25,184 nt of DNA from a virus. A program made the position numbers and the translations under genes. This document shows positions 8,454 through 25,184 of this stretch, in pieces; within the stretch, counting starts at the first letter, position 1; each line of letters opens with the position of its first letter. The stretch is from positions 1-25,184 of the IMG/VR virus record IMGVR_UViG_3300017952_000095, one strand, 5' to 3'. The notes below the pieces were generated by a model. That model ran no database searches. It was not told the DNA's origin and saw nothing but the letters and a program-made list of their open reading frames with translations.

Positions 8454-8611
8454 TGTTACCAGACGAGATGGAAGCCGAAAAGAATCGTAAAATTATTGTG
8501 TCGCAGGCCAATACAATTGATATTCTTCAACGTAATGTAAAAGAGTTACAAGAGCAATTGCAGAATGCTCTTAAACGTATTGCCAAACTAACTGAGGATA
8601 ATAAACTATGA
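8453..8611 (+). CDS. 52-residue coiled-coil microprotein
   Basis: An ATG at 8453 overlaps the previous stop (TAATG), and its own stop overlaps the next start (ATGA at 8608). The product is one long helix with heptad-like spacing: VSQANTIDILQRNVKELQEQ, then LQNALKRIAKLTEDNKL. It resembles a SlyX- or leucine-zipper-like microprotein. The tight coupling at both ends makes it a real gene; its role is unknown. Confidence 0.7.
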   Translation: MLPDEMEAEKNRKIIVSQANTIDILQRNVKELQEQLQNALKRIAKLTEDNKL

Positions 8612-9036
8612 AAGCTGGAAAAGTATGGGGCACTACAGAGCTGATTGAGGCAAACGGTGCATTAGAGTTTCATCGTATTGAAATGGAAGAAGGTGGTGTG
8701 TGTTCGAAGCATTTGCATCGCTATAAATGGAATGGGTTTTATGTAGAGTCGGGTAAGATGCTTATTCGTACATGGCAACAGGATTATGATCTTTGTGATA
8801 TTACTCGTCTTAGTGCCGGTGAATATCATAAGGTAAAGCCAGGACTATACCATCAGTTTGAATGTCTAGAGTCTGGTGTTGCTTATGAATTATATTGGGC
8901 AGAGTTTAATCACCATGACATTGTAAGAGAGACAGTAGGTTATATGGATGATGAATATACGGAATATGAATTTGGCTTAGGTCAATTAGATAGTGCTACT
9001 AGTCCAGTTTCTATGTCAATAAGTATAGAAAAATAA
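8608..9036 (+). CDS. Cupin-domain protein, sugar-metabolism-like
   Basis: A 142-residue single-cupin protein. The segment GGVCSKHLHRYKWNGFYVESGK holds the metal-binding HxH (His35, His37), and the second cupin motif is PGLYHQFECLESG near residues 78-90. The start KVWGTTELIE and the CSKHLH phrase resemble the C-terminal cupin of type II mannose-6-phosphate isomerase/GDP-mannose pyrophosphorylase and related sugar cupins. It starts the sugar-nucleotide module that follows (phosphomannomutase, cytidylyltransferase, UDP-sugar dehydrogenase), so a sugar-phosphate isomerase role is plausible but unproven. The gene is followed by the mutase after 1 nt. Confidence 0.82.
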   Translation: MKAGKVWGTTELIEANGALEFHRIEMEEGGVCSKHLHRYKWNGFYVESGKMLIRTWQQDYDLCDITRLSAGEYHKVKPGLYHQFECLESGVAYELYWAEFNHHDIVRETVGYMDDEYTEYEFGLGQLDSATSPVSMSISIEK

Positions 9037-9037
9037 A

Positions 9038-9748
9038 ATGAAGATACAATATATTTTTGATGTTGATGGTACACTCACCCCATCTCGTCAACGTATAGAT
9101 ACTGAATTTAAATTTTGGTTTAGAACATTTTGCCAATATAATGATGTTTATGTTGTTACTGGTTCGGATAGAGAAAAAACATTAGAACAACTGACACATG
9201 ACATTTATTATAGATGCAAGCGAGCATATCAATGTTCTGGGAATGATGTGTGGGAACAAGACAACCATATTAGGTCTACTGAATTTAAATTAACAGATCA
9301 TCTTTATAAAGATCTAAACGAAGAAGTATCTAATAGTAAATTTTATCAAAAGAATGGAAAGCATATTGATGAGCGAGTAGGCCTAGCTAATTTTAGTATT
9401 CCAGGTAGAGGTATAGACCTAGAGCTTAGATCTATGTATCGGCAATGGGACGAACATAAGAATGAACGTTATGATATAGCCAAAAGACTTACAGAAAAAC
9501 ATCCTGAATATGAATTTAAGGTTGCAGGCGAGACCGGAATTGATATATCATATAAAGGTAATAATAAGTCTATAATTCTAAATGATTTTAATTATACGGA
9601 TACTATATATTTCTTTGGTGATAAAACATTATTGGGTGGTAATGATCATGAGATTGCATTAGCAGTCAGTGATCGTTTAGGAAAGAACAAAACATTTACA
9701 GTAAGTGATTGGCGACATACATGGAAACTTCTAAGATCGTTGGAATAA
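9038..9748 (+). CDS. Eukaryotic-type phosphomannomutase (HAD family)
   Basis: A 236-residue protein close in plan and length to human PMM1/PMM2 (about 250). HAD motif I is FDVDGTLTPSRQ with nucleophile Asp8 and acid/base Asp10. The cap carries NFSIPGRG, matching the substrate-binding N-x-S-x-x-GR of PMMs, and GETGIDISYKG. The C-terminal FFGDKTLLGGNDHEIALAV matches the FGDKT-x-x-GGNDHEI signature exactly. It should interconvert mannose-6-phosphate and mannose-1-phosphate (or glucose phosphates). Most bacteria use the unrelated ManB/AlgC type, so this family in a phage is unusual. It overlaps the next gene by 28 nt. Confidence 0.85.
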   Translation: MKIQYIFDVDGTLTPSRQRIDTEFKFWFRTFCQYNDVYVVTGSDREKTLEQLTHDIYYRCKRAYQCSGNDVWEQDNHIRSTEFKLTDHLYKDLNEEVSNSKFYQKNGKHIDERVGLANFSIPGRGIDLELRSMYRQWDEHKNERYDIAKRLTEKHPEYEFKVAGETGIDISYKGNNKSIILNDFNYTDTIYFFGDKTLLGGNDHEIALAVSDRLGKNKTFTVSDWRHTWKLLRSLE

Positions 9749-10170
9749 CATTTAGCACCTTTGATTTATTACATGCCGGTCATGTATCAATGCTTAGAGA
9801 AGCCAAAACAGTATGTGATCATCTAATATGTTGTATTCAGGTTGATCCATCAATTGATAGACCAGAAAAGAATAAACCTGTACAAACATTAGTAGAACGT
9901 TGGACACAACTACAAGGTGTCAAATACGTTGATGAGATTATTCCATATCAGACTGAAAATGATGTAGAAGACATCTTGCAATTATTTAATATTAATGTTA
10001 GAATTATTGGTGAAGAATACAAACATGGTAAATTTACGGGCAGAGCCATTTGTTCTGCTAGAGGTATAGAAATATACTATAATAAAAGAGATCATAGATT
10101 CTCTACAAGTGACTTGCGTAATCGTGTACATGGTATAGAATTAAAGAAGGATATCGGAGGATTGGAATGA
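9721..10170 (+). CDS. Nucleotidyltransferase of the TagD/cytidylyltransferase family
   Basis: A 149-residue protein with the family hallmarks: FSTFDLLHAGHVSMLREAK, holding the HxGH-type CTP-binding motif (His18, His21), and RFSTSDLRNRV near residue 130, equivalent to the ISTT-type motif. The closest known reactions are glycerol-3-phosphate or other phosphate cytidylylation (TagD, HldE/RfaE C-terminal domain). I chose the ATG at 9721; an in-frame TTG at 9709 is further upstream but less likely. It sits inside the sugar module and ends in ATGA overlap with the dehydrogenase, so it probably activates a sugar or polyol phosphate; the substrate cannot be read from sequence. Confidence 0.82.
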   Translation: METSKIVGITFSTFDLLHAGHVSMLREAKTVCDHLICCIQVDPSIDRPEKNKPVQTLVERWTQLQGVKYVDEIIPYQTENDVEDILQLFNINVRIIGEEYKHGKFTGRAICSARGIEIYYNKRDHRFSTSDLRNRVHGIELKKDIGGLE

Positions 10171-11039
10171 AGATAATGATTATTGGCCATGGCTTTGTGG
10201 GCCAGGCTGTTGATTATGGATTTACACATCCTAAGGTTGAGAAAATGATCATTGACCCAAAATATGGTCATACACATCCTATTCATTATGATATATTTTA
10301 TCCAAAAGATCTATTAGATTATAATATGATATTTGTATGTGTACCAACTTCTATGGCAGACGATGGAAGTGTAGATACAAGTATATTAGATAAGATAGTA
10401 AACAGAATTGTAAGTGATGGGCCTATTGCATGTCCTGTGGTTATCAAATCTACGGTGACACCTGATTGGTTAAAAAAATTGGAGACTGATTCTTTATACA
10501 GCAACTTTGTTTATAATCCTGAATTCCTCACAGAAAAAAATGCTAATGAACAGTTTGTTAATCCCGAATTTCATTTACTGGGTGGGAGGGTAACCGCAAC
10601 ACAGACCGTGCAATATCTTTATAGTGAATACAGTATTATGAATGATGCACCATTTCTCCATTGCACTATGCAAGAAGCCAGCTTTATTAAATATGCTATT
10701 AATACTTTTCTTGCAACCAAGGTTACATTCTTTAATAATCTTTACGATGCTGTTAATGATTATGATGGCAATGTTAATTGGTCCTCAGTTCTTAAAGGCA
10801 TTTCATTTGATAAGAGAATTGGAAAAAGCCACACCTCAGTACCAGGATTTGATGGTAAACAAGGTTTCGGTGGAGCTTGTTTTCCTAAAGATACTTCCGC
10901 GTTTACTAAGTTCAGTAACCGGTTGCCATTGCTAGAAAAAGTTATTAAAATTAATAATGAATATAGAAGCAATTACGAACTAGATACAAGAGAGATTGAA
11001 CAACATGTCAATTATGGACAAACTAAAGAAGAACAGTAA
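10167..11039 (+). CDS. UDP-glucose/GDP-mannose dehydrogenase family protein (short form)
   Basis: A 290-residue NAD-dependent nucleotide-sugar dehydrogenase. The Rossmann start MKIMIIGHGFVGQA gives GxGxxG (residues 7-12). VPTS, NPEFLTEKNA, the helix with Lys175 (ASFIKYAINTF) and the catalytic Cys238 in GFGGACFPKDTSAF are all in place. Normal members run about 390-450 residues; this one stops after the central domain, so the C-terminal nucleotide-sugar-binding domain is missing. It should oxidise UDP-glucose or a related sugar to the uronic acid if active. It may be a streamlined phage form, act with a partner, or be truncated. Its end overlaps uvsX by 35 nt. Confidence 0.85.
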   Translation: MKIMIIGHGFVGQAVDYGFTHPKVEKMIIDPKYGHTHPIHYDIFYPKDLLDYNMIFVCVPTSMADDGSVDTSILDKIVNRIVSDGPIACPVVIKSTVTPDWLKKLETDSLYSNFVYNPEFLTEKNANEQFVNPEFHLLGGRVTATQTVQYLYSEYSIMNDAPFLHCTMQEASFIKYAINTFLATKVTFFNNLYDAVNDYDGNVNWSSVLKGISFDKRIGKSHTSVPGFDGKQGFGGACFPKDTSAFTKFSNRLPLLEKVIKINNEYRSNYELDTREIEQHVNYGQTKEEQ

Positions 11040-15229: not shown

Positions 15230-15463
15230 ATGGGTAAACATCTATCTACATTTTATAAAGATGATGAATCAGAATATTGTGAAATACATGTTGACTATAA
15301 AGAAGAATTCTTTTATATTAAGTATTATAAAAAAGATGCTGCAAAATGGTTTCACACAGAAGAATTTATTGGTAAGTCTTTGCGTTATGTAGAAGATGCA
15401 GCTGAAAACTGGGCTCTAGGAATTAAGAAAATCGATCCACATTATGAAGGAACATTATTATAA
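15230..15463 (+). CDS. Small conserved phage protein
   Basis: A 77-residue protein rich in aromatic and acidic residues: STFYKDDESEYCEIHVDYKE, then FFYIKYYKK and the helix SLRYVEDAAENWALGIKKI. It reads as a small alpha/beta fold. It lies directly between thyX and queD, overlapping queD as TAATG, and AAGGAGG is just ahead of its ATG. Similar proteins ending in YVEDAAENW occur in marine T4-like phages; I do not know the function. Confidence 0.75.
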   Translation: MGKHLSTFYKDDESEYCEIHVDYKEEFFYIKYYKKDAAKWFHTEEFIGKSLRYVEDAAENWALGIKKIDPHYEGTLL

Positions 15464-15906
15464 TGCCATATCAATCAACTAAGACATACGGTCATAACAT
15501 TGGCCTGTCGGCATGCTTTCGACAACCAAAAGCGCATTCGCACTGTAGATTTTTACATGGATACAGTTTGGCGTTTCGTTTTACATTCCAAGCAGCAGAG
15601 CTTGATGAACGCAATTGGGTTGTAGACTTTGGTGGTCTTAAACCTCTAAAGGCCTGGCTAGAGGATACATTTGATCATAAGGTAGTATTAGATGCTGATG
15701 ATCCAGAAATGGTAAAATTTGAAATGCTAGCAGATGCAGGTCTAGCGGAACTTACTGTTTTAGACGGTGTTGGAGTAGAACGTTTTGCTAAGCATGCATA
15801 TGACTTTGCCGATAAGCTAGTGAGGGAAATGACGGATAATCGGTGTTGGGTAATATCAGTTGAATGCATGGAACATGGTGCTAACTCAGCAATCTATTAT
15901 GGGTGA
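15463..15906 (+). CDS. queD: QueD-like 6-carboxytetrahydropterin synthase (PTPS family)
   Basis: A 147-residue member of the 6-pyruvoyltetrahydropterin synthase family, second step from GTP to preQ0. The CRFLHGYSL motif at residues 28-36 aligns with Cys-x3-HGH of QueD; here the third ligand position is Tyr34 (HGY), and the first-ligand region is ACF instead of AAH. Nearby His25 and His27 could replace the zinc ligands. FDHKVVLD gives the catalytic Asp71-His72, and VECMEHGANSAIYY the C-terminal acid. The next gene is QueE, 3 nt later, which supports the QueD role. The altered ligands leave open a shifted activity. Confidence 0.82.
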   Translation: MPYQSTKTYGHNIGLSACFRQPKAHSHCRFLHGYSLAFRFTFQAAELDERNWVVDFGGLKPLKAWLEDTFDHKVVLDADDPEMVKFEMLADAGLAELTVLDGVGVERFAKHAYDFADKLVREMTDNRCWVISVECMEHGANSAIYYG

Positions 15907-15909
15907 TAT

Positions 15910-16779
15910 ATGTTTGGTCTAAATGAAATTGTAGGAAAAAAATATTTCGAAGATGCTGGTGACAAGTTATTTGTCACTAGTGTTTTTTATACTATGCAGG
16001 GAGAAGGTCCATATCGTGGTATGCCTGCATTATTTGTTCGTCTAGCTAAATGCAATCTTGGTTGCTCTTGGTGTGATGCATTCTTTGATGATGGTGATTG
16101 GATGACCGTCGAAGAAGTTATATTGGCCGGTGTACTAGAAGTAGAAAAGTATTATGACAATAATGTACCTGAAGGTATTTGGGATCGTATGGTATTTGTT
16201 GTTACTGGTGGAGAACCATCTCTGCAGAAGATTAAACCTCTATTAGAATATGCATCCGAGAAGTTTGGAGCCACACAGATCGAGTCTAATGGTGTATTTG
16301 CTCCTGATGTTCCAGATCGTACTACTGTAGTAATCTCTCCTAAGTGTAATGAGAAGGTTGATATCTCATTAGGCTTTAAGCGTTATATTCCTACAAAGTA
16401 TATGGAACCCAATAAGGATACATTGGCTCGTGCTGATTGTCTAAAGTTTATTGTAGAGGATCAAGATGAATTTGATTCTCCATATCAATCTATTCCTGAT
16501 TGGGCTCATGAATGGCATAAAGAGACTGGACGTGATATCTACATCTCGCCTATGAACATCTATAATAAAGAACCAGAGAAGGCTAAGGCCATACGAGCTG
16601 GTAAGAATAAGATGGATCTAGAAGAACGATCTACTGTAGATGAAGTTGTGTCTTGGTGGGAGAAAGATCTATTTAATATGGATGCCAATCAAAAGAACCA
16701 TGAACATGCAGCTCGTTATGCATTAGATCATGGTTACATCTTCCAAATGCAATTGCATCTATTTGCGAGCTTTGCATGA
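15910..16779 (+). CDS. queE: QueE 7-carboxy-7-deazaguanine synthase
   Basis: A 289-residue radical SAM enzyme. The Fe-S motif is C-x3-C-x2-C: CNLGCSWC with Cys48, Cys52 and Cys55, the usual QueE form. FYTMQGEGPYRGMPALFVRL is the QueE N-terminal phrase, and FVVTGGEPSLQ the SAM-binding GGEP. The C-terminal FQMQLHLFASFA resembles the QueE end (Q-x-H-K). It converts 6-carboxytetrahydropterin to 7-carboxy-7-deazaguanine. The body is somewhat longer than bacterial QueE (about 220), with an insert around residues 150-230. It sits between queD and the MazG-like gene, which it overlaps by ATGA. Confidence 0.93.
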   Translation: MFGLNEIVGKKYFEDAGDKLFVTSVFYTMQGEGPYRGMPALFVRLAKCNLGCSWCDAFFDDGDWMTVEEVILAGVLEVEKYYDNNVPEGIWDRMVFVVTGGEPSLQKIKPLLEYASEKFGATQIESNGVFAPDVPDRTTVVISPKCNEKVDISLGFKRYIPTKYMEPNKDTLARADCLKFIVEDQDEFDSPYQSIPDWAHEWHKETGRDIYISPMNIYNKEPEKAKAIRAGKNKMDLEERSTVDEVVSWWEKDLFNMDANQKNHEHAARYALDHGYIFQMQLHLFASFA

Positions 16780-17057
16780 TTCGAGACTTTGAGACACTTG
16801 AAGAAGAGATCGTAACTATTCTTGCCGAAGAGTCCGCAGAGCTCATACAAGAGATCATGAAGATGAAACGTAGGAATAGTTATCCTTCAAAACAATTCCA
16901 AGAAGAGCTTGGAGATGTGATGTGCTTGATTGATCTTTGCTTTGAATACAAATTGGCAAATAGGTCAATTGCAAATATGAGATCATATCAAAAGAAAGAA
17001 AAATTAAAAAAATGGTCAAAAATATTTGAGAAAGCCCGTGACTTCAAGTACGAATGA
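16776..17057 (+). CDS. MazG-like nucleotide pyrophosphohydrolase
   Basis: A 93-residue all-alpha NTP pyrophosphatase-type protein. The motif EESAELIQEI at residues 18-27 followed by FQEELGDVMCLID (ExxD at about 44-50) is the EExxE...ExxD magnesium site. MazG-type enzymes hydrolyse (d)NTPs to monophosphates; phage copies are thought to adjust nucleotide pools or (p)ppGpp levels. The start overlaps the queE stop (ATGA), linking it to the deazaguanine operon. Its 3' end holds the -35 of the next promoter. Confidence 0.85.
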   Translation: MIRDFETLEEEIVTILAEESAELIQEIMKMKRRNSYPSKQFQEELGDVMCLIDLCFEYKLANRSIANMRSYQKKEKLKKWSKIFEKARDFKYE

Positions 17058-17077
17058 TCCTATATTAATATTATAGG
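17038..17077 (+). promoter_or_regulatory. Promoter with -10 dyad upstream of 17091 gene
   Basis: GTGACT (17038-17043) and TATATT (17061-17066) are 17 bp apart. The -10 lies in a dyad, CCTATATTAATATTATAGG at 17059-17077, whose six-base ends CCTATA and TATAGG are perfect inverted repeats. Two other promoters in the window (near 18750 and 24722) share the same TATATTAATA core. Confidence 0.65.
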
Positions 17078-17090
17078 AACGGAGGACATC

Positions 17091-17654
17091 ATGGATAAGT
17101 ATCTTGGAGCTCATCTTATTTCTGCTTTGTTGACCAAGAAGGGTATCGTACCTGATAATAATTTAGCCAGAGCTGTCGGTACAATCATATATGAAGTATC
17201 GACAACTAAGTCAGGTTTAGTATCAAAGTCATTAGTGGATGAATATGGCTTTAGATCTTCTTCGTTCTGTGAAGAACATTATCATTCTCGTCAGCAAGTA
17301 GGTAAGCGTATAGTTGAAGAGAATCCATCGTATGATGATATAGTAAAGATACTAGGTGAATGTACTAAGGTTCACCTAGTAACATCCGAAGAGAATATTA
17401 GACTTTCTCCTATTCAAAATGGTCGAGACACAAGAGATAAATCTTGGCAAGATCAATATCTATTAGCAGGTATTGAATTAGTAAAAGATCAGGGCACAGC
17501 ACCTAGATACTTTTATAGCACTTATGTGATCGACGATTCTGTGTATGAGAATATCCAGCTAGCATCTGATGCTACCGGATTGCCTTGGGACATTATTAGG
17601 AAGCGCTGTTCTTCCAAGGCTCTTAAATGGCGCAACTTTGTGAGAAAGGGATAA
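17091..17654 (+). CDS. Conserved phage protein with possible DNA-binding C-terminus
   Basis: A 187-residue protein expressed from its own promoter, with GGAGG at 17081-17085. The middle has CEEHYHSRQQVGKRIV and the phrase VHLVTSEENIRLSPIQN. The C-terminus YENIQLASDATGLPWDIIRKRCSSKALKWRNF resembles the short modular helix-turn-helix repeat found near homing endonucleases (NUMOD1/IENR1-like), suggesting DNA binding. I see no nuclease motif in it. A GIY-YIG-like gene follows directly, so the two may act together, which is inference. Confidence 0.65.
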   Translation: MDKYLGAHLISALLTKKGIVPDNNLARAVGTIIYEVSTTKSGLVSKSLVDEYGFRSSSFCEEHYHSRQQVGKRIVEENPSYDDIVKILGECTKVHLVTSEENIRLSPIQNGRDTRDKSWQDQYLLAGIELVKDQGTAPRYFYSTYVIDDSVYENIQLASDATGLPWDIIRKRCSSKALKWRNFVRKG

Positions 17655-17656
17655 AC

Positions 17657-18046
17657 ATGTACAAAGTATACCTAGCAAAACTAAAACGTGAAATTCGTGA
17701 GAATGGATTACCGACCACAGTCTATAAGGTTGGTATAACATCATCTAATGATGCTGAAAGACGTTTACGATATACTGGAGAAGATGAACCTAACCCGGTG
17801 ACATCTGTCTTCCAAGATATTAAAATTATGACATCCACACAACGTGTTTATAGTAAAGAAGAAGCTGAATCTATCGAGAAGCGTATTATGGATAGTATTG
17901 CCAATACTGCGGGCGATAAGTATTTTCATAATTGGTATGAACCTCGTCAGATAAGTGGCATTACAGAAATGCGTAAATGGAATTATGACGAAATTCAAAC
18001 AATCTTTGAAATCTTTAAGGAATATAAAAACAATGCTAAAGACTAA
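17657..18046 (+). CDS. GIY-YIG-related protein (T5orf172/MUG113-like)
   Basis: A 129-residue protein. VYLAKL near the start and YKVGIT at residues 22-27 match the paired strands of the GIY-YIG fold; ERRLRYTG gives the conserved Arg region, and EEAESIEKRIMDSI the acidic helix with the metal-binding Glu. This is the short T5orf172-like form. GIY-YIG domains cut DNA; many phage copies are homing or repair nucleases, but small ones may be inactive. I chose ATG 17657 over an upstream start within the previous gene; AAAGGG is 7 nt ahead. It overlaps folE by 14 nt. Confidence 0.68.
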   Translation: MYKVYLAKLKREIRENGLPTTVYKVGITSSNDAERRLRYTGEDEPNPVTSVFQDIKIMTSTQRVYSKEEAESIEKRIMDSIANTAGDKYFHNWYEPRQISGITEMRKWNYDEIQTIFEIFKEYKNNAKD

Positions 18047-18725
18047 AGACACATCAGCCGTTATTCGTAAACGGATTGAGGATGCCAAGGGTAGATATTG
18101 GGCTGGAGATAATATCTCAGACTTTATTGAAGACGGTGAAAAAGAAAAACTAATTGAAGAGGCTACAGCAGCCTTTGAAAAGGTTCTTGATACATTATTG
18201 ATTGATCGGCATAATGATCCTAACTCTATGGGAACGGCTAAACGATTGGCCAAGATGTATTATAATGAAATTATGGCAGGTCGTTATGATCCTGCCCCAT
18301 CTGCTACAGCATTTCCTAATACAGGTAAGTCTGCTTATCATGGTATGCTTACGGTTCGTTCAGAACTAAAGTCCATGTGTAGTCATCATCACCAACCTGT
18401 TACTGGTGTTGCCTATATTGGTATTATTCCTACAGATAAGGTTATTGGTCTATCTAAGTATACACGTATTGCTCAGTGGTGTGCTCGTCGTGGTACTCTA
18501 CAAGAAGAACTATGTAATGATATTGCTCGTGAGATTATGCTAGCCACAGAATCAGAGAATGTGGCTGTTTATATTCAGGCTAAGCATGGTTGCTGTGAGA
18601 ATCGTGGTATCATGGCTACTAGCTCATTAACACAGACTACAGTTCTCAAAGGATTGTTTAATACGCCTCATGCTAAAGGTGAGTTCTTTGACAATGTGCG
18701 TATGCAGGAATTAAATTCAAAATAA
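18033..18725 (+). CDS. folE: FolE GTP cyclohydrolase I
   Basis: A 230-residue GTP cyclohydrolase I. MCSHHHQPVTGVAYIGIIP holds the zinc Cys116 and His119, VIGLSKYTRIAQWCARRGTLQEEL is the family core, and KHGCCENRGIM gives the third ligand (Cys187 or Cys188). It turns GTP into dihydroneopterin triphosphate, feeding both folate and the queuosine/deazaguanine branch. Here QueD, QueE and QueC are close by, so preQ0 is the likely purpose, although ThyX also uses folate. I start at ATG 18033, with AAGGA upstream; the longer frame overlaps the GIY-YIG gene too far to be likely. Confidence 0.93.
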   Translation: MLKTKDTSAVIRKRIEDAKGRYWAGDNISDFIEDGEKEKLIEEATAAFEKVLDTLLIDRHNDPNSMGTAKRLAKMYYNEIMAGRYDPAPSATAFPNTGKSAYHGMLTVRSELKSMCSHHHQPVTGVAYIGIIPTDKVIGLSKYTRIAQWCARRGTLQEELCNDIAREIMLATESENVAVYIQAKHGCCENRGIMATSSLTQTTVLKGLFNTPHAKGEFFDNVRMQELNSK

Positions 18726-18749
18726 ATTAAAAAATATCCTTTCTAACCC

Positions 18750-18785
18750 TTGACTTATCCTCTTTTTGGTATTATATTAATAATA
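18750..18785 (+). promoter_or_regulatory. Promoter with -10 dyad upstream of 18806 gene
   Basis: TTGACT (18750-18755) and TATATT (18773-18778) are 17 bp apart. TATTAT (18770-18775) and ATAATA (18780-18785) form a perfect 6-bp dyad over the -10. A strong AAGGAGG (18790-18796) and a T8 run precede the ATG at 18806. It is the main gap without a gene in this region (80 nt). Confidence 0.75.
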
Positions 18786-18805
18786 TCAGAAGGAGGATTT
18801 TTTTT

Positions 18806-19141
18806 ATGTTAGATGCTAAGACAGTAAAGGGTATGAATATTAAAGCAGTTGTTGATGATGCTGAATGGCAAGCTGTTCGTAAGGCTCTCATTGGCAATTG
18901 GAAAAATAATCATGTTCAGAATGTAAATCTGCTAAGAGAATACTTTGATAAATATAATGATAATCCTTTAGCGATTCGTCGTCTTGTAAATGTATTGACA
19001 GGATCTGTTCATCGTGTAGGCCATACAAAAGGTCAAAAAGAAACAGATGCTCTTCGTCGTGATGTTCGTATTGTATGGCGCAATATGCTTGGAGAAGAAT
19101 GGGATCCAGAAGATCCAAGATATAAGACAGGAGAGATCTAA
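18806..19141 (+). CDS. Conserved phage protein of unknown function
   Basis: A 111-residue, helical protein (VDDAEWQAVRKALIGNWKNN, VNLLREYFDKYND, then KETDALRRDVRIVWRNMLGEEW). It opens a transcription unit with the strongest promoter and ribosome binding site of the region, so it is likely made in quantity early. I do not recognise a family. Its stop overlaps the next start (TAATG). Confidence 0.75.
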   Translation: MLDAKTVKGMNIKAVVDDAEWQAVRKALIGNWKNNHVQNVNLLREYFDKYNDNPLAIRRLVNVLTGSVHRVGHTKGQKETDALRRDVRIVWRNMLGEEWDPEDPRYKTGEI

Positions 19142-19368
19142 TGAAGACGTTCAAGCAATTCTCAGAAGGGCCTAAGGATGCTGCTGGTAAGTCAGTCTTT
19201 GTAAAGAAGATAGCTAAGTCAGCCGGTGTTGATTATAAGAAAGCAGGTGCTATAGCAGCTGCTGCTGGTCGTAAGAGAATGGGCGCCGCTAAGTTTAATG
19301 CCAAGGCAGCAGCGGGTCGTAGAGCGAGTATACGCGCACGTAAGGCGGGTAAAGTATATAAAGGTTAG
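19141..19368 (+). CDS. Small basic protein with capsid-targeting-like N-terminus
   Basis: A 75-residue protein starting MKTFKQFSEG, very like the T4 capsid targeting sequence (MKTYQEFIAE) that directs internal proteins into the prohead and is cut off by protease gp21. The rest is rich in Ala, Lys, Arg and Gly (KKAGAIAAAAGRKRMGAAK, then RRASIRARKAGKVYKG) with almost no acids, a histone-like composition fitting packaged DNA-binding protein. I cannot show cleavage; the residue before the expected cut is Glu (FSE), but the T4 rule prefers Leu or Ile two before it. MKTF starts also occur in other phage proteins, so an ordinary small basic protein remains possible. Confidence 0.72.
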   Translation: MKTFKQFSEGPKDAAGKSVFVKKIAKSAGVDYKKAGAIAAAAGRKRMGAAKFNAKAAAGRRASIRARKAGKVYKG

Positions 19369-19370
19369 TT

Positions 19371-19832
19371 ATGGTATATGTGTTATTAAAGAACAAAGGC
19401 GGACAAGTTCTTAAAGACATTAAGTTGAAAGATCCTAAAGGCAAGACTTGGACAGTCACAGGAACATCTCGTAAAGGTATTAATCGTTATTCAATTGGTT
19501 TGAAATCAAGTGATGGTTCTACAAGAACTGTTATGAATCATGATATAGCAAAAAAGAAAGATCCTAAGCATGAGCCTTGGTCAGTAGTAGGTGATTTTCA
19601 TTCACCATCAAAGATTGCTAAGATGTATGGTCGTAAGTTAGATCCTGATGCTAATAAACCAAGACCAGAACGTGCTTCATTTTGGAAAATGAAATCTAAA
19701 CCTGGTAGTCATAATTACAAGCAAAAGAAACGTCTCATGAAAGTGGCTCCTGATCAATACGGTAAGTTTAAAGAAGATTGGGAAGCAAATTTAGAATGGT
19801 TAATGGAGAATAATCTTAATGAAGAATCTTGA
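19371..19832 (+). CDS. Basic phage protein of unknown function
   Basis: A 153-residue lysine-rich protein. The N-terminal half reads as beta strands (VYVLLKNKGGQVLKDIKLKD, then TWTVTGTSRKGINRYSIGL), and the C-terminal half has KMKSKPGSHNYKQKKRLMKV and a Trp-rich acidic tail (WEANLEWLMENNLNEES). I see no known motif. It begins 2 nt after the previous stop and overlaps the next gene by 14 nt, in a run of small basic genes under the 18750 promoter. Confidence 0.65.
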   Translation: MVYVLLKNKGGQVLKDIKLKDPKGKTWTVTGTSRKGINRYSIGLKSSDGSTRTVMNHDIAKKKDPKHEPWSVVGDFHSPSKIAKMYGRKLDPDANKPRPERASFWKMKSKPGSHNYKQKKRLMKVAPDQYGKFKEDWEANLEWLMENNLNEES

Positions 19833-20031
19833 AGTATATGTTAATGCAGTGTTCGTAGCTCCTACTCTTGAAAAGAAAAAAGAAGCTATGTATCGTTTGA
19901 TTGAAACATCTCATGCAAAAAAAGAAACAAAAAAGCTTGCCAAGACTAAGGTAAGTATGTTAAAATCAAATAATCAGGTAGATAAGTATGCTACTAACTA
20001 TATGTTCTCGGGAGAAGGTCTAAGTGTCTAA
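19819..20031 (+). CDS. Small basic phage protein
   Basis: A 70-residue protein with a helical, lysine-rich middle (LEKKKEAMYRLIETSHAKKE, then TKKLAKTKVSML) and a short hydrophobic start. Overlaps at both ends (14 nt before, 8 nt after) indicate coupled translation in the same operon. No family recognised. Confidence 0.65.
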   Translation: MKNLEVYVNAVFVAPTLEKKKEAMYRLIETSHAKKETKKLAKTKVSMLKSNNQVDKYATNYMFSGEGLSV

Positions 20032-20431
20032 TAAGGCTAATAAGTTTAACATACATTGGCAGTTGACACGTACACAGGTACGTAAGATCAAAGATGTTGA
20101 TGCAAAGATTAAATATGTATTGAATTTTCTTAATCGTAATAAGAATGTTCATAATTATGGAAGAGTTCATAATTGGTTAAAGATGACAGGTGTTGCTTAT
20201 AAAGATGATAAGCGTCAGAAGTTTGTTGATGCTGTATCTAAGCTTGAGGCTAATAAGTCTAAGTATTCTAATACTGCTGATAATGAAAATGATCTTTCAA
20301 AGATGTCTAAGGATGATCTTAAATTAGTATATAAAGATCTATCTAAACGTAAGTATGGATTTCAATATAAGTCTGTACCTAAAGCACATACTGATTTTAT
20401 GGATAAGTTGAAAAAAGCTCTAGAGGATTAA
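20024..20431 (+). CDS. Small basic phage protein
   Basis: A 135-residue protein starting at GTG 20024 with GGAGAAGG about 8 nt upstream. Segments are NIHWQLTRTQVRKIKDVDAK, a YVLNFLNRNKNVHNYGRVHNWLK helix pair and LKLVYKDLSKRKYGFQYK. It is positively charged and probably helical; I do not know its role. The stop overlaps the nuclease start (TAATG). Confidence 0.68.
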   Translation: MSNKANKFNIHWQLTRTQVRKIKDVDAKIKYVLNFLNRNKNVHNYGRVHNWLKMTGVAYKDDKRQKFVDAVSKLEANKSKYSNTADNENDLSKMSKDDLKLVYKDLSKRKYGFQYKSVPKAHTDFMDKLKKALED

Positions 20432-20895
20432 TGTTTGCAAAGTGGACCGAAGTCAACGGTATTAAGTGTCAGGGTAAAACCGAAGCTCGTACCTGCCAGG
20501 CTTTATTTGATTTAGGATTCAAGGTTAAGAGAGGCAAGTTTGTAGAAACACCTCATGGTCGTTATACGCCAGACTTTGACATTGGATCAGTATATATAGA
20601 AGTAAAGGGTATTAATTCCTGGTATCAGGCTTGTGGTTTGGTACCAATGATGGAAAATGCAAGAGACCCCAAGCTTGCTAAGATTACAGATACATCTCTC
20701 AAAAAAATGTTACATGTTAATAAGATTAAGCCAGTCTATGTATTTGTGGACTTGACTTCTTCTAAAAAGGCTTTATTATCTATGGATAGGCCAAATACAG
20801 AACTTAATGTGCTATATGGTTATCCAAATGAATTGAAGGAATTTTTATATGAATTTACCGCTGATCTCTCACGAGATACCACACTCTTTAGCTGA
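20431..20895 (+). CDS. PD-(D/E)XK-type nuclease-like protein
   Basis: A 154-residue protein with a clear nuclease core in its first 60 residues: an N-terminal acidic helix position Glu18 in GKTEARTCQALFDLGF, then GRYTPDFDIGSVYIEVKG with Asp48, Glu57 and Lys59 (PD-x8-ExK). This is the restriction-endonuclease-like fold found in phage Holliday junction and transposon-type (TnsA) nucleases. It could act in replication or recombination, or as a modification-aware nuclease, since it lies directly before the DpdA-like gene and overlaps it by 47 nt. Substrate is unknown. Confidence 0.75.
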   Translation: MFAKWTEVNGIKCQGKTEARTCQALFDLGFKVKRGKFVETPHGRYTPDFDIGSVYIEVKGINSWYQACGLVPMMENARDPKLAKITDTSLKKMLHVNKIKPVYVFVDLTSSKKALLSMDRPNTELNVLYGYPNELKEFLYEFTADLSRDTTLFS

Positions 20896-21637
20896 GGCTG
20901 AACATGCTGGAGATTATGACATTAACGACTATCTTTTCGTTCTTTTACATCGTTATATGTCTGACGATCGTTATAGGAGTATTGTGGATTCTTATAAGGG
21001 TTTTACCATTCTTGATAATAGTTGCTTTGAGTTGGGTGCTGCTCTCTCTAATGAACTTATTGTAGAATATGTAGAAAAGATTAAACCTGATGTATTTGTA
21101 TTACCTGATGTGTTGGGTAATATGGAAGAGACAATTGATAGGTCACATGACTTCTTAAACAATTATCCTGAATTAGAATCCAAAGCAATGGCTGTGGTAC
21201 AGGGTGATACTCCAAAAGAGTTTAAAGACTGTTATGAATGGTTTGATGAGAATTGTCCAAACCTGGCAATGATTGGTATTCCGTTTTGTTTTAATTGGGC
21301 ATTTCGTAGAAACCTAAATCCCGTATCACATGCATTGGAACGCGTAGACCTTATTGATATGTTATTGAATGAGGGTGTAATTCGTAAGACAACTAAACAC
21401 CATCTATTAGGTACTTGGTGGGCTCAAGAGTTCGGTTATTATCATGAACAGGATTGGATATATTCTGTTGATACTTCTAATCCTATTGCAGCAGCCATTG
21501 ATGGCGATAGATATCCAATTGAGCATAAGCCTAAAATAAAATTTGATGAATTTGTAGATATGGGCTTGAAAGAAATCAATATTGATGATATAATTTATAA
21601 TGTAAAAGCATTTCGGGAGATCGTGAAACGTGACTGA
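20849..21637 (+). CDS. dpdA: DpdA-like DNA guanine transglycosylase (TGT family)
   Basis: A 262-residue protein of the TGT-like fold. LDNSCFELG at 55-63 with Asp56, VLPDVLGN at 84-91 with Asp87, VVQGDT at 116-121, HLLG at 185-188 and VDTSNP with Asp208 follow the order of TGT-like phage DpdA proteins, which swap guanine in DNA for a 7-deazaguanine. It is shorter than tRNA TGTs and lacks their C-terminal zinc motif. FolE, QueD, QueE and QueC nearby supply the base, which makes a DNA role much more likely than tRNA. AAGGA at 20836-20840 supports the start; the gene overlaps the nuclease by 47 nt. Confidence 0.82.
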   Translation: MNLPLISHEIPHSLAEAEHAGDYDINDYLFVLLHRYMSDDRYRSIVDSYKGFTILDNSCFELGAALSNELIVEYVEKIKPDVFVLPDVLGNMEETIDRSHDFLNNYPELESKAMAVVQGDTPKEFKDCYEWFDENCPNLAMIGIPFCFNWAFRRNLNPVSHALERVDLIDMLLNEGVIRKTTKHHLLGTWWAQEFGYYHEQDWIYSVDTSNPIAAAIDGDRYPIEHKPKIKFDEFVDMGLKEINIDDIIYNVKAFREIVKRD

Positions 21638-21875
21638 TAAAATTAATCCAGACCATTATAAAAGTATTGATGGTTACGAAGTAATTGATATTATCGAATA
21701 CTTTGATTTAAATTTTGCTAGAGGTAATGCAATTAAGTATTTGCTGAGAGCAGGAAGAAAAGCAGAACAAGGATATGATATGTCTGCCAAAGAGATAGAA
21801 GATCTTGAAAAGGCAGGATGGTATATCTTCCGTGAAATTAAGAAATTGAAAGGCCGTAATAATGAACCTGAGTGA
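21630..21875 (+). CDS. DUF3310 family protein
   Basis: An 81-residue protein matching DUF3310: INPDHYKSIDGYEVIDIIEYF, then ARGNAIKYLLRAGRK and DLEKAGWYIFREIKKL. The family is common in phages, including the C-terminal part of T7 gp1.7, which acts on nucleotides, so a nucleotide-metabolism or binding role is plausible. It starts at GTG 21630 with GGGAG about 11 nt upstream, overlapping dpdA by 8 nt and queC by 14 nt. This places it inside the modification operon. Confidence 0.88.
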   Translation: MTDKINPDHYKSIDGYEVIDIIEYFDLNFARGNAIKYLLRAGRKAEQGYDMSAKEIEDLEKAGWYIFREIKKLKGRNNEPE

Positions 21876-22602
21876 GGCATTAGTTAAATTACCAGATACA
21901 GATAAAAATGTATTGGCTGTATTATCCGGTGGTCTTGATTCTAGTATTATGACTATGATGCTGGTAGAAAAGTATGGACCTGATCGAGTGTATGCGTTAT
22001 CATATAATTATGGTCAGAAACAAAAAGTAGAATTAGAAAAGGCAGCAGAGCTGTGTGATAAATTAGGCATTGGCCATAAGGTTCTAGATCTAGGTATTCT
22101 AGGTGAGATTGCAGAACCTATCTCGGCTAATATTGGTGGCTCAGACGTAGCGATGCCAACCATTCATGATGTACTTGGAGATCCTCAACCGAAGACATAT
22201 GTTCCTTTCCGTAACATGATTCTCCTTTCTTTGACTATGGCACAAGCAGAAGCTTCTAACGCTTCTCATGTCTTTACGGGTCTTCAGGTACATGATGAAT
22301 ATGGTTATTGGGATACAAGCCAACGATTTGTGGATTCTATGAATGCAGTTGCTATTCAGAATAGAACACACCGCGTAGAAATCCTAGCTCCATTTAGTAA
22401 GCTTTCGAAGCTACAAGAAATTAAAATCTGCCAAGAGATGAATATGCAGCATCTATTGATACATACTCTTACCTGCTATGATCCAGACGATCAAGGGCGG
22501 TCTTGTGGTAAATGTCCATCATGTGCAGAACGTATTCAGAACTTTATGGGATCGGGTATGATTGATCCTATTCCTTATCAAATTGAAATTCCATGGGATT
22601 AA
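21862..22602 (+). CDS. queC: QueC 7-cyano-7-deazaguanine (preQ0) synthase
   Basis: A 246-residue ATP-pyrophosphatase-type enzyme. SGGLDSS at 22-28 is the PP-loop, YNYGQKQKVELEKA the adjoining helix, and YVPFRNMILLSL and GLQVHDEYGYWDTS are QueC phrases. Four zinc cysteines are at 205, 215, 218 and 221 (C-x9-C-x2-C-x2-C), as in bacterial QueC. It converts 7-carboxy-7-deazaguanine to preQ0 with ammonia and ATP. It overlaps DUF3310 upstream and the amidotransferase follows after 3 nt. Length is normal (about 230). Confidence 0.95.
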   Translation: MNLSEALVKLPDTDKNVLAVLSGGLDSSIMTMMLVEKYGPDRVYALSYNYGQKQKVELEKAAELCDKLGIGHKVLDLGILGEIAEPISANIGGSDVAMPTIHDVLGDPQPKTYVPFRNMILLSLTMAQAEASNASHVFTGLQVHDEYGYWDTSQRFVDSMNAVAIQNRTHRVEILAPFSKLSKLQEIKICQEMNMQHLLIHTLTCYDPDDQGRSCGKCPSCAERIQNFMGSGMIDPIPYQIEIPWD

Positions 22603-22605
22603 AAT

Positions 22606-23247
22606 ATGTGTTCTATTATAGGTACCTATGATTTAAAAGAACTAGAATATCTTGCGGAGGTAAATGCCTATAGAGGTACTATATCTCATTCTATTGCGGC
22701 CGTAGTAGATAATAAAGTAGTATACTTAGATAGAGGTGAAAATGGCCTAGAGGTATCTAATCATGAAAAAGATATACCTTCTGATGCATATTACATAGCT
22801 CATCAACAAGCACCTACATCAGCCGATGATAATAAAAATACAATACATCCAGCAGAATATGCGGGACGTTTATTATGGCATAATGGTATAATTAAAGAAG
22901 AACAGATTAAGAAGTTTAAAGAACATTTTAAAGAAGACATTAATTGGGATACGGCCTGGCTAGTTAGATTGATGGCTCAAAACAATCCTAGTCTTTTATC
23001 AGACGTTGATGGCGGTTTTGCTTGTATGTATTATAGTGAGGATGGCCTTTGGGTGTTTAGAAATGATCTGGTTGCCTTATGGCATAAGGGATCTACCGTT
23101 TCTTCTACTCGCTGGGATCATTATGACACTAGCATTACGTATGTACCATCTGGCAAGATACATAAATTAAGTGATAATAAAGAATGGATTGAATTGGAAC
23201 ATACGTTCCAAACAAAGGAAAAATATTTTTGGAGTGTGCCGTTATGA
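22606..23247 (+). CDS. Stand-alone class II glutamine amidotransferase
   Basis: A 213-residue Ntn-type glutaminase domain. The catalytic Cys is residue 2 (MCSIIG), exposed after Met removal; NAYRGTISHS gives the RG motif, AHQQAPTS and IHPAEY the substrate loop, WHNGII the oxyanion NG (Asn93-Gly94) and DVDGGFACMYY the late strand. It should release ammonia from glutamine. No synthetase domain is attached. In Gat-QueC fusions such a domain is joined to QueC for making G+ or amide bases; here it is a separate gene 3 nt after QueC, so it likely works with it. Its stop overlaps the next start (ATGA). Confidence 0.85.
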   Translation: MCSIIGTYDLKELEYLAEVNAYRGTISHSIAAVVDNKVVYLDRGENGLEVSNHEKDIPSDAYYIAHQQAPTSADDNKNTIHPAEYAGRLLWHNGIIKEEQIKKFKEHFKEDINWDTAWLVRLMAQNNPSLLSDVDGGFACMYYSEDGLWVFRNDLVALWHKGSTVSSTRWDHYDTSITYVPSGKIHKLSDNKEWIELEHTFQTKEKYFWSVPL

Positions 23248-23741
23248 GTATGATTAATATTGGTGGCAGTAATGCTACCTCTAATCTAACTAATATTTTA
23301 CCCAAAGATGTTCAGCCTAATGCTGTAGATCTACGTCTAGGTAAGGTATATAATATTAAAGATAATGTATTTACAATTGATGAAGACCATAAGGTTCATC
23401 GTGGATCTGAAGAATGGGAAGTATGGGAAGACGGATACTATTATTTGTATCCAGGCGCTTATGAAGTTATAATGGAGAATGAAATACATGTGGGACCAGA
23501 TGAAGCGGGATTTGTCATCACCAGGAGTACTCTTAATCGTAATGGGTGTTATATTACTTCAGGTCTCTATGATACTGGCTATCATGGGGTTATGGCTGGG
23601 GTCTTGCACGTAACAACTGGATTGATGCGGATTAAACCAGGAACTAGGATTGGTCAGTATCTAAACTGGAAGGCGGAAGCTTTAAGCAGTTATGACGGTG
23701 ATTACGGAAAGGGGAAGGAGCATGATCAAAAATATGGGTAG
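23244..23741 (+). CDS. dUTPase/dCTP deaminase-fold protein
   Basis: A 165-residue trimeric-fold nucleotide enzyme. QPNAVDLRLGKVY, ITRSTLNRNG and GLYDTGYHGVMAGVLHV match the shared core; Asp110 in YDTGYHG is the dUTPase catalytic position. The Glu that dCTP deaminase uses in its -VLEF-like strand is not at the equivalent place (VLHV), so dUTPase activity looks likelier than deamination. The C-terminal YGKGKEHD would be the nucleotide-closing tail. It would keep uracil out of DNA or supply dUMP to ThyX. I start at ATG 23244 (ATGA overlap), not at a TTG 15 nt earlier. Confidence 0.82.
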   Translation: MSMINIGGSNATSNLTNILPKDVQPNAVDLRLGKVYNIKDNVFTIDEDHKVHRGSEEWEVWEDGYYYLYPGAYEVIMENEIHVGPDEAGFVITRSTLNRNGCYITSGLYDTGYHGVMAGVLHVTTGLMRIKPGTRIGQYLNWKAEALSSYDGDYGKGKEHDQKYG

Positions 23742-23871
23742 AGGTATTCGCATGATGAAATCAGCAGCGGCACGGTTACGCCGCCGTGAAAATAAAAAAG
23801 TAGTAAAAGAACGACAAGAAAATTTTTATTCTAAGATGCGTAGATTGAGAAAGAAAAATGTTCACAATTGA
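23722..23871 (+). CDS. 49-residue very basic microprotein
   Basis: ATG 23722 with AAGGAG at 23714-23719, ending at TGA 23869-23871. The product reads MIKNMGRGIRMMKSAAARLR and continues with RRENKKVVKERQENF and RRLRKKN: about 40 % Lys/Arg. It overlaps the previous gene by 20 nt and the next by 14 nt. It may bind nucleic acid; no family recognised. Confidence 0.6.
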   Translation: MIKNMGRGIRMMKSAAARLRRRENKKVVKERQENFYSKMRRLRKKNVHN

Positions 23872-24094
23872 ATTTGATATGGATGAAACTCTTATCACTA
23901 TTATGGACAACACGGGAGAGCTCGAAGATGTTGGTGCTCTCCTTTATGAAGACTATTGTCATATAAGACAATGGAATGAAAAAACACAAAGATATGATGT
24001 CATTACAATGAAACCAGAAATGTATCTAAAACTTATGAAAGCATTTAACCTTGAAGAAGGTGCATATGACATCGTAACAGTTGAAAGAAATTAG
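23858..24094 (+). CDS. Small conserved phage protein
   Basis: A 78-residue acidic protein: MFTIEFDMDETLITIMDNTG, then EDYCHIRQWNEKTQRYDVITM and PEMYLKLMKAFNLEEGAYDI. From memory, close relatives of this exact layout occur in marine T4-like phages. The FDMDET opening looks HAD-like at first sight, but no other HAD motif follows and the protein is too short. Function unknown. Confidence 0.78.
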   Translation: MFTIEFDMDETLITIMDNTGELEDVGALLYEDYCHIRQWNEKTQRYDVITMKPEMYLKLMKAFNLEEGAYDIVTVERN

Positions 24095-24095
24095 T

Positions 24096-24725
24096 ATGCA
24101 AACAGTACCTTTATTTCCTGTATACTTTGCAAAAGATCAAGCTCCTGATGGACTCATTACAGAAGACATTACAAAGTTTATAGAACAAATACCCAGAAAA
24201 AATAATACATTAAATGGTGTTTCTAAGGATAACTATGTATTAGAAAGATATCCTGAACTTAGTCATATAAAGAGTTGGCTTCAAAATCAAATTAATAATG
24301 TATTTAAAAATGATTTTGCAGCGGATCCAAGACGTATTAAACCAGTGATTACACAAAGTTGGTTTACATATTCTAAAAGAGGTGAAGCTATGCATGGACA
24401 TACTCACCCCAATAGTATTTTAAGTGGCGTGTTATATATCAGAGCAAATAAAGATCTTGATGTTTTAAAACTTGGTAGACCCCATCAAGAAAAAATGATG
24501 AAATGGTACTATACTCATTTAGGTGAATTTACAGCCGCTGAATACTTGGAAAGTGTTGGTACAGGAGACTTTGTATTATTTCAATCTGATCTACATCATG
24601 AATTTGGTGAGGTAGAACATGATGATGTTAGAATTAGTTTGGCCTTTAATACCTTTGCAGAAGGTTATTGGGGCGATGATGACTTACTCACTGGACTTCA
24701 TATTAAATATGATTACCCGGGTTGA
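24096..24725 (+). CDS. Putative 2OG-Fe(II) oxygenase-like protein
   Basis: A 209-residue protein resembling the TIGR02466-type group of phage and bacterial putative 2OG-Fe(II) oxygenases. QSWFTYSKRGEAMHGHTHPN, then SILSGVLYIRAN are the first half-site, and FQSDLHHEFGEVEHDDVRIS, then LAFNTFAEGYWG the distal histidine and arginine strand. The acidic iron ligand is not obvious to me. The substrate is unknown; it is the second such protein in the window. I use ATG 24096 rather than a TTG at 24081. The stop overlaps the -35 of the next promoter. Confidence 0.75.
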   Translation: MQTVPLFPVYFAKDQAPDGLITEDITKFIEQIPRKNNTLNGVSKDNYVLERYPELSHIKSWLQNQINNVFKNDFAADPRRIKPVITQSWFTYSKRGEAMHGHTHPNSILSGVLYIRANKDLDVLKLGRPHQEKMMKWYYTHLGEFTAAEYLESVGTGDFVLFQSDLHHEFGEVEHDDVRISLAFNTFAEGYWGDDDLLTGLHIKYDYPG

Positions 24726-24750
24726 CATTTGACTTCATATGTCCTATATT
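24722..24750 (+). promoter_or_regulatory. Promoter with TATATTAATA core upstream of 24778 gene
   Basis: TTGACA (24722-24727) and TATATT (24745-24750) are 17 bp apart. The downstream bases continue AATAATATAAGGA, an imperfect dyad with TCCTATATTA. TTAGGAG (24765-24771) is the ribosome binding site. Confidence 0.75.
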
Positions 24751-24777
24751 AATAATATAAGGAATTAGGAGAATATT

Positions 24778-24993
24778 ATGAGTAATCAACGTGGTGGTAA
24801 ATGGAAGCCGGCTTCTTTAGATAATGGTACAAGTGATATGCGTATACGGAATTTCTTTCGTACATGTGTAAGAGCTTTAGAAGATGAACCTGATGCTCAA
24901 TTTTACTTTGAGCAGATAGTAGATCATATCAATCAAGGCGGTAGTATTATGACGGACGATCTTACAACCGTCCGCCGTATCTTAGGAGCTTAG
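24778..24993 (+). CDS. Small conserved phage protein
   Basis: A 71-residue protein: NQRGGKWKPASLDNGTSDMR, then IRNFFRTCVRALEDEPDAQF and IMTDDLTTVRRILGA. The C-terminal half is helical. It has its own promoter and ribosome binding site and is the last + strand gene here. Its stop overlaps the stop of the convergent membrane-protein gene by 3 nt. Function unknown. Confidence 0.72.
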   Translation: MSNQRGGKWKPASLDNGTSDMRIRNFFRTCVRALEDEPDAQFYFEQIVDHINQGGSIMTDDLTTVRRILGA

Positions 24994-25184
24994 TCTTTTT
25001 TCTCTCCGCTCTTGCCTTTTGAGTAGGCCTGAGCACCAAAGAATGCTGCAACCAAACCAGCAATAGCCACAAAGTAAGTAGGTGCGATATCACCTACGAT
25101 CTGAGCGGCGCCCTCTATTCCTAATACAGAGGTGATCATAATAAGGACCGGATACAAGAGCATGCCCCATAGTGCAAACCATGC
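24990..25184 (-). CDS. Small membrane protein, C-terminal part (runs off window)
   Basis: Reading the reverse strand from base 25184, 64 codons are open to the TAA at 24990-24992. The visible product begins AWFALWGMLLYPVLIMITSV and continues GIEGAAQIVGDIAPTYFVAI, then AGLVAAFFGAQAYSKGKSGE, ending KKD. Two hydrophobic spans (about residues 4-21 and 36-52) and a basic/acidic tail suggest a two-helix membrane protein. The start lies outside the window. It is the only gene I support on the reverse strand and marks a change of direction, perhaps toward a structural or lysis region; a holin-like role is a guess only. Confidence 0.75.
   Translation of the reverse strand, partial: AWFALWGMLLYPVLIMITSVLGIEGAAQIVGDIAPTYFVAIAGLVAAFFGAQAYSKGKSGEKKD

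Follow-up and report, generated by a model that had tools for sequence, protein, structure and literature searches.

How might a marine T4-like virus make a modified guanine and place it in its own DNA, and what does the unannotated gene beside its queC contribute? These questions are raised by IMG/VR virus record IMGVR_UViG_3300017952_000095, a genome fragment of 25,184 bases that is analysed here in full and referred to as the window. A first-pass annotation of this sequence had read QueD, QueE, FolE, QueC and a DpdA-like transglycosylase on its plus strand, and all five are found where they were placed, by profile matches or, for the transglycosylase encoded at 20849, by homology and fold. 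The same annotation closed the region at 23247; the five features do lie inside it, but that position is the end of an additional gene, left unnamed, for a class II glutamine amidotransferase (GAT; 22606-23247). We consider it probable that QueC and GAT form a two-subunit, glutamine-fed preQ0 synthetase supplying DpdA, and that a 7-deazaguanine thereby replaces guanine in the phage's own DNA. The pathway itself is of a known type; the GAT-paired class of QueC and the exchange of the pair as a module are new.

A QueC class paired with an amidotransferase

The features at the center of this analysis are as follows.

21862..22602, plus strand: QueC of a distinct, GAT-associated class (PF06508, 4.9e-50; TIGR00364, above the curated cut-off; clade support 100/100; motifs)
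22606..23247, plus strand: class II glutamine amidotransferase (GAT), proposed as the ammonia-supplying partner of QueC (GlmS profile, model, Foldseek, invariant residues)
21842..23243, no strand assigned: segment swapped as a unit, holding queC and gat here but one QueC without zinc cysteines in L004 and L006 (blastn against each of these contigs puts the borders at 21841 and 23244; open reading frames of L004)

The gat gene begins 3 bases 3' of queC, and the two are separate open reading frames with their own stops; no fused open reading frame of this QueC class was found among the loci. On the basis of profile and model, we assign the gat product to the class II glutamine amidotransferases. 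A profile built from 64 relatives hits GlmS (9.6e-6), and Foldseek matches the predicted structure (pLDDT 94), which has the N-terminal nucleophile (Ntn) fold, to the glutaminase fold of GlmS, GFAT and PurF (5.5e-9, probability 1.00); the catalytic residues C2, N93, G94 and D115 are invariant in the 64 sequences. Adjacent QueC-GAT pairs also occur in KVP40, nt-1, VH7D, 6E35.1a, pf16 and Vibrio phage 2.275.O, where the GAT annotations that we read are “hypothetical” or, in 2.275.O, “nucleophile aminohydrolase.” A likely function can now be given to this gene, which is widespread among marine T4-like viruses and present in the long-studied KVP40.

The pairing was counted in loci fetched by DpdA, a sampling not selected for GAT. 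All 24 distinct window-class QueC with room downstream were accompanied by GAT, against none of the nine of the other class, although these are not 33 independent events, because the rows are related. The two genes are mostly gap-free, usually lying within 30 bases of each other or overlapping. As a glutaminase always accompanies this one QueC clade, GAT is most simply read as the ammonia donor of QueC. It could instead be an independent amidohydrolase acting on another phage metabolite or on the modified base, as EgtC, which is among its structural matches, might suggest; the aligned position of the glutamine-binding arginine of GlmS, occupied by Gln in GAT, also fits such a role. That reading is quite improbable, given the exclusive and tight coupling to one QueC clade, the loss of both genes together and the invariance of the amidotransferase Cys, Asn, Gly and Asp.

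The window QueC has an intact PP-loop (SGGxDS) and four intact zinc cysteines, invariant in 18 relatives, and its substrate-side motif is altered from the canonical YPDCR to YWDTS. Its class is marked by YWDT(S/T)Q and CPSC(A/S)ER with the zinc cysteines kept; canonical QueC of solved structure reads GYPDCRDEF (2pg3 and 3bl5 have YPDCR), and the fused Gat-QueC of archaea and phage 9g reads YPDN(E/T)xEF with CGPCxMR. Three groups, namely the window class, the fused class and a cysteine-less type termed QueC', each form a single clade with a bootstrap of 100 in a maximum-likelihood tree; the window QueC falls outside the fused clade and lacks the YPDN(E/T) motif. These sequence comparisons point to a third class of QueC beside the canonical and fused ones, glutamine-fed and made of two subunits.

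The Gat-QueC archaeosine synthase of crenarchaea and phage 9g likewise has a class II amidotransferase working with QueC, as we propose for the window, but it is one polypeptide with GAT first and with another QueC motif and clade, whereas the window has two genes; the amidotransferase motif is NxRAEPT in the fused proteins and HxQAPT in the window. As the motifs differ and the clades separate at 100 bootstrap, the pair is not a fused Gat-QueC that has fallen apart. That origin had been considered and was rejected, the hhalign comparison of GAT with the 9g Gat domain being weak (17%) and the tblastn list for 9g Gat containing no window-type GAT.

Fused Gat-QueC was also seen outside archaea and phages, in sequences from bacterial isolates or metagenome-assembled genomes: Paraburkholderia adhaesiva (L230), an Anaerolinea metagenome-assembled genome (L203 and L231), L234, L236 and L237; these are possibly prophages or reflect an unexplored bacterial use.

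Exchange of the pair and its product

By blastn, contig L004 matches the window at 95.5% identity over 17953-21841 and at 83.4% over 23244-25184, and between 21841 and 23244 it has one different QueC, QueC', instead of queC and gat. Contig L006 shows the same exchange borders. The pair is exchanged as a unit, and these near-identical contigs with and without it amount to a natural allele swap in which the role of GAT is directly testable. QueC' (L004:3999-4805) has no zinc cysteines in 12 of 12 aligned examples (L004, L006, L023, L024, L062, L064, L067, L070, L072, L096, immuto and G003), reads TSYKP...SDYKSSSSxER and keeps the PP-loop and YPDCR. Its clade takes in the QueC of Flavobacterium phage immuto, several phages have it beside QueF, and the 160-167 kb records with QueC' have no GAT. 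It is possible, if rather doubtful, that queC and gat constitute an exchangeable chemistry module whose swap for QueC' changes which 7-deazaguanine enters the DNA (e.g., dPreQ0 or dG+ versus dADG). If so, near-identical marine phages would carry different bases and evade different host nucleases. A firmer proposal, that the cysteine-less QueC makes dADG as in Campylobacter phage CP220, was dropped: CP220 QueC retains its cysteines, and QueC' also occurs beside QueF.

QueC converts 7-carboxy-7-deazaguanine (CDG) to preQ0 by way of an amide and requires ammonia. In the scheme that we favor, FolE, QueD and QueE would make CDG from GTP; GAT, as a separate subunit, would release ammonia from glutamine for QueC, which would use it to carry CDG through the amide to preQ0. 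DpdA would then replace guanine by preQ0 in phage DNA through a base exchange similar to that of tRNA-guanine transglycosylase (TGT), and the resulting 7-deazaguanine DNA would be protected from restriction, a type of defense already known from phages.

The combination of FolE, QueD, QueE, QueC and DpdA is the gene set that yields dPreQ0 in other phages (PMC6884629). preQ0 is also the likely product of the QueC-GAT pair, since the DNA of pair-bearing nt-1 contains mainly dPreQ0 and trace amounts of dADG and dG+ (PMC6884629), that of 6E35.1a, which has the pair and QueF, contains 15% dPreQ1 (PMC12028318), which requires preQ0, and QueF lies near many pairs (43 of 56 distinct GAT-sampled loci). 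The three QueF proteins that we read have the NADPH motif and the catalytic Cys; QueF was not found in nt-1. Because the window and two relatives of ~150 kb likewise showed no QueF, we predict that the DNA product of the window virus is mainly dPreQ0. A weak QueF match in G002 was discarded, as it falls on the FolE of that record.

The main rival to a preQ0 product is that QueC and GAT together are an archaeosine synthase, equivalent to 9g Gat-QueC but encoded by two genes, that adds ammonia from GAT to the preQ0 nitrile, so that the DNA carries mainly dG+. The partner domains equal those of the 9g enzyme, which together with DpdA puts dG+ into DNA (PMC6884629), the dG+ traces in nt-1 come from a phage with the pair, and the exchange with a single QueC could mean a change of product. 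We nevertheless regard dG+ synthesis as unlikely: the window QueC belongs to a separate clade without the YPDN(E/T) and CGPCxMR of all fused Gat-QueC read, nt-1 has mainly dPreQ0 and 6E35.1a, with QueF, has dPreQ1, and QueF adjoins the pair in many loci.

Several observations weigh against a glutamine-fed preQ0 synthetase that supplies DpdA. GlmS R73, which holds the glutamine carboxylate, aligns with the invariant Gln 68 of GAT, whose invariant arginines (R23 and R152) lie elsewhere. The dPreQ0 of nt-1 amounts to only ~0.1%, with traces of dG+ and dADG (PMC6884629). As the contig is a fragment, QueF or ArcS may be encoded elsewhere in the genome. Finally, QueD keeps only one of its three classical zinc histidines, AxH...HGH having become ACF...HGY in the motif alignment, and its activity is presumed. 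The initial reading that every pathway enzyme has its key residues thus holds for the radical-SAM motif CxxxCxxC of QueE (CNLGCSWC) and for the zinc and catalytic motifs of FolE (CSHHHQPVTG, SKYTR and HGCCENRG) but fails for the zinc motif of QueD. QueD retains the catalytic Cys, the Asp-His pair and Glu, and relatives with the same histidine loss have a new His immediately before the catalytic Cys; the QueD of pf16 and L106 keep the first His and have none added there. The zinc ligand has possibly been relocated in this variant.

The transglycosylase and the rest of the pathway

The remaining features of the pathway region are as follows.

20849..21637, plus strand: predicted DpdA-type DNA guanine transglycosylase of the immuto/CP220 family (tblastn, AlphaFold2, Foldseek, invariant residues)
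21630..21875, plus strand: small DUF3310 protein encoded between dpdA and queC (PF11753, 1.3e-12)
15463..15906, plus strand: QueD-like 6-carboxytetrahydropterin synthase with the variant zinc site ACF...HGY (PF01242, 1.3e-16; phrog_2389, 6.3e-43; motif alignment)
15910..16779, plus strand: QueE, 7-carboxy-7-deazaguanine synthase, radical SAM (phrog_2076, 1.4e-47; TIGR04322, 6.4e-21; CNLGCSWC)
17955..18725, plus strand: FolE, GTP cyclohydrolase I (PF01227, 4.5e-38; phrog_2197, 1.8e-45; catalytic and zinc motifs)

QueD, QueE, FolE and QueC were each confirmed by profile searches (Pfam, PHROGs and NCBIfam), and translation of FolE may in fact start downstream of the GTG at 17955, its domain starting at about residue 62-73. 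For the 20849 product, Pfam and NCBIfam gave no match and PHROGs only phrog_19058, “unknown.” By tblastn, this protein is 36% identical to a “DNA guanine transglycosylase” of phage immuto and 32% identical to an unannotated firehammervirus (CP220) protein over 96-97% of its length, and its profile matches CP220 (1.8e-80) and immuto (5e-124), giving full-length homology; this type is presumably the one called DpdA3 in the literature. The structural comparison suggested for this protein by the first-pass annotation was run and found the TGT barrel: for an AlphaFold2 model built with 61 relatives (pLDDT 95, pTM 0.91), all 50 PDB matches listed by Foldseek were TGT, ArcTGT or DpdA 7ui4, a DNA preQ0 insertase of solved structure, at probability 1.00. 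A sequence search for relatives of solved structure found none, the link to TGT and DpdA structures being made only by fold comparison. D56, D87, Q118-G119 and D208 are invariant in 61 of 61 relatives, and we take D56, D87, Q118 and D208, mapped by motif order, to correspond to TGT D102, D156, Q203 and D280. In a maximum-sensitivity test with a 14-sequence set, the profile showed no homology to DpdA1 (9g) or DpdA2 (nt-1/pf16) (E values of 0.04, 0.22 and 0.0017), and hhalign gave no usable alignment with either. Sequence and model together support a DpdA-type DNA guanine transglycosylase, and the gene set, the TGT fold and the invariant residues in active-site order support the DNA-modification pathway proposed in the first pass.

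FolE, QueD, QueE and QueC are also common to tRNA queuosine synthesis, and a role in supplying queuosine precursor to host tRNA, raising translation, has been proposed for phages without DpdA (PMC6884629); the TGT-like protein would then act on tRNA rather than DNA. This is very improbable here, as the 20849 product is short (262 aa), with four Cys at 59, 128, 136 and 147 and none of the CxCxxC zinc cluster of tRNA TGT, is functionally closest to proteins annotated as DNA guanine transglycosylases, and belongs to a family that includes CP220, from a genus in whose DNA all deoxyguanosine is reportedly replaced (PMC10273834). Because DpdA is of the CP220 family, much of the guanine in the window virus is possibly replaced as well; the earlier suggestion of “some or all” guanines should be read as an extrapolation, full replacement being known only for CP220-type relatives (PMC10273834).

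CP220 gp056 (L012:11998-12774, YP_009169190, annotated as hypothetical) is a clear member of the transglycosylase family; Campylobacter phages were listed as without DpdA in a 2019 survey. In G005, the 117 kb record behind L121, QueC-GAT is present and a CP220-type DpdA was not found.

Like the window, CAjan and Rosebush have FolE, QueD, QueE, QueC and DpdA in one phage (Hutinet et al. 2019, PMC6884629), but the window differs in its QueC class and GAT partner, its non-9g-type DpdA and its T4-like marine virus. The schizotequatroviruses nt-1, KVP40 and 6E35.1a share the adjacent QueC-GAT pair and the T4-like background; they use the longer DpdA2, whereas the window has a 262-aa CP220-type DpdA, and 6E35.1a adds QueF. 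Conversely, immuto and the Campylobacter firehammerviruses share the DpdA family over nearly the whole length and are without GAT, immuto having QueC' plus QueF and CP220 a canonical QueC motif. The window locus joins a GAT-paired QueC to a DpdA of the family found in phages that replace all of their guanine.

The virus and its gene layout

The source is an uncultured marine virus, identified as T4-like by genes for DNA polymerase, UvsX and a replicative helicase in the window, and a complete pathway of known type in a T4-like virus had been recognized correctly in substance. The polymerase is nearest to that of Phage C48C1 (Kyanoviridae, 51%), followed by cyanophages (44%), and there is no close match at the DNA level among annotated phages. 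As the independent contig L003 is 99.8% identical to the window over 11.9 kb, the gene arrangement is not an assembly accident. The pathway genes, earlier described as scattered, a word that fits only in part, form two close groups, queD-queE and dpdA-DUF3310-queC-gat, and only folE is set apart, between them. The DUF3310 gene keeps its position between dpdA and queC in most window-like loci.

Inside the replication block, 8608-11039 encodes sugar-nucleotide proteins (a cupin, a eukaryotic-type phosphomannomutase [PF03332], a cytidylyltransferase and a UDP-glucose/GDP-mannose dehydrogenase); at the equivalent position, Phage C48C1 encodes a UDP-glucose dehydrogenase together with an epimerase. 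A 154-aa protein encoded at 20431-20895, whose gene shares 47 bases with the start of dpdA, has no Pfam or PHROG match; it resembles a small PD-(D/E)XK nuclease by eye and is present only in the closest relatives.

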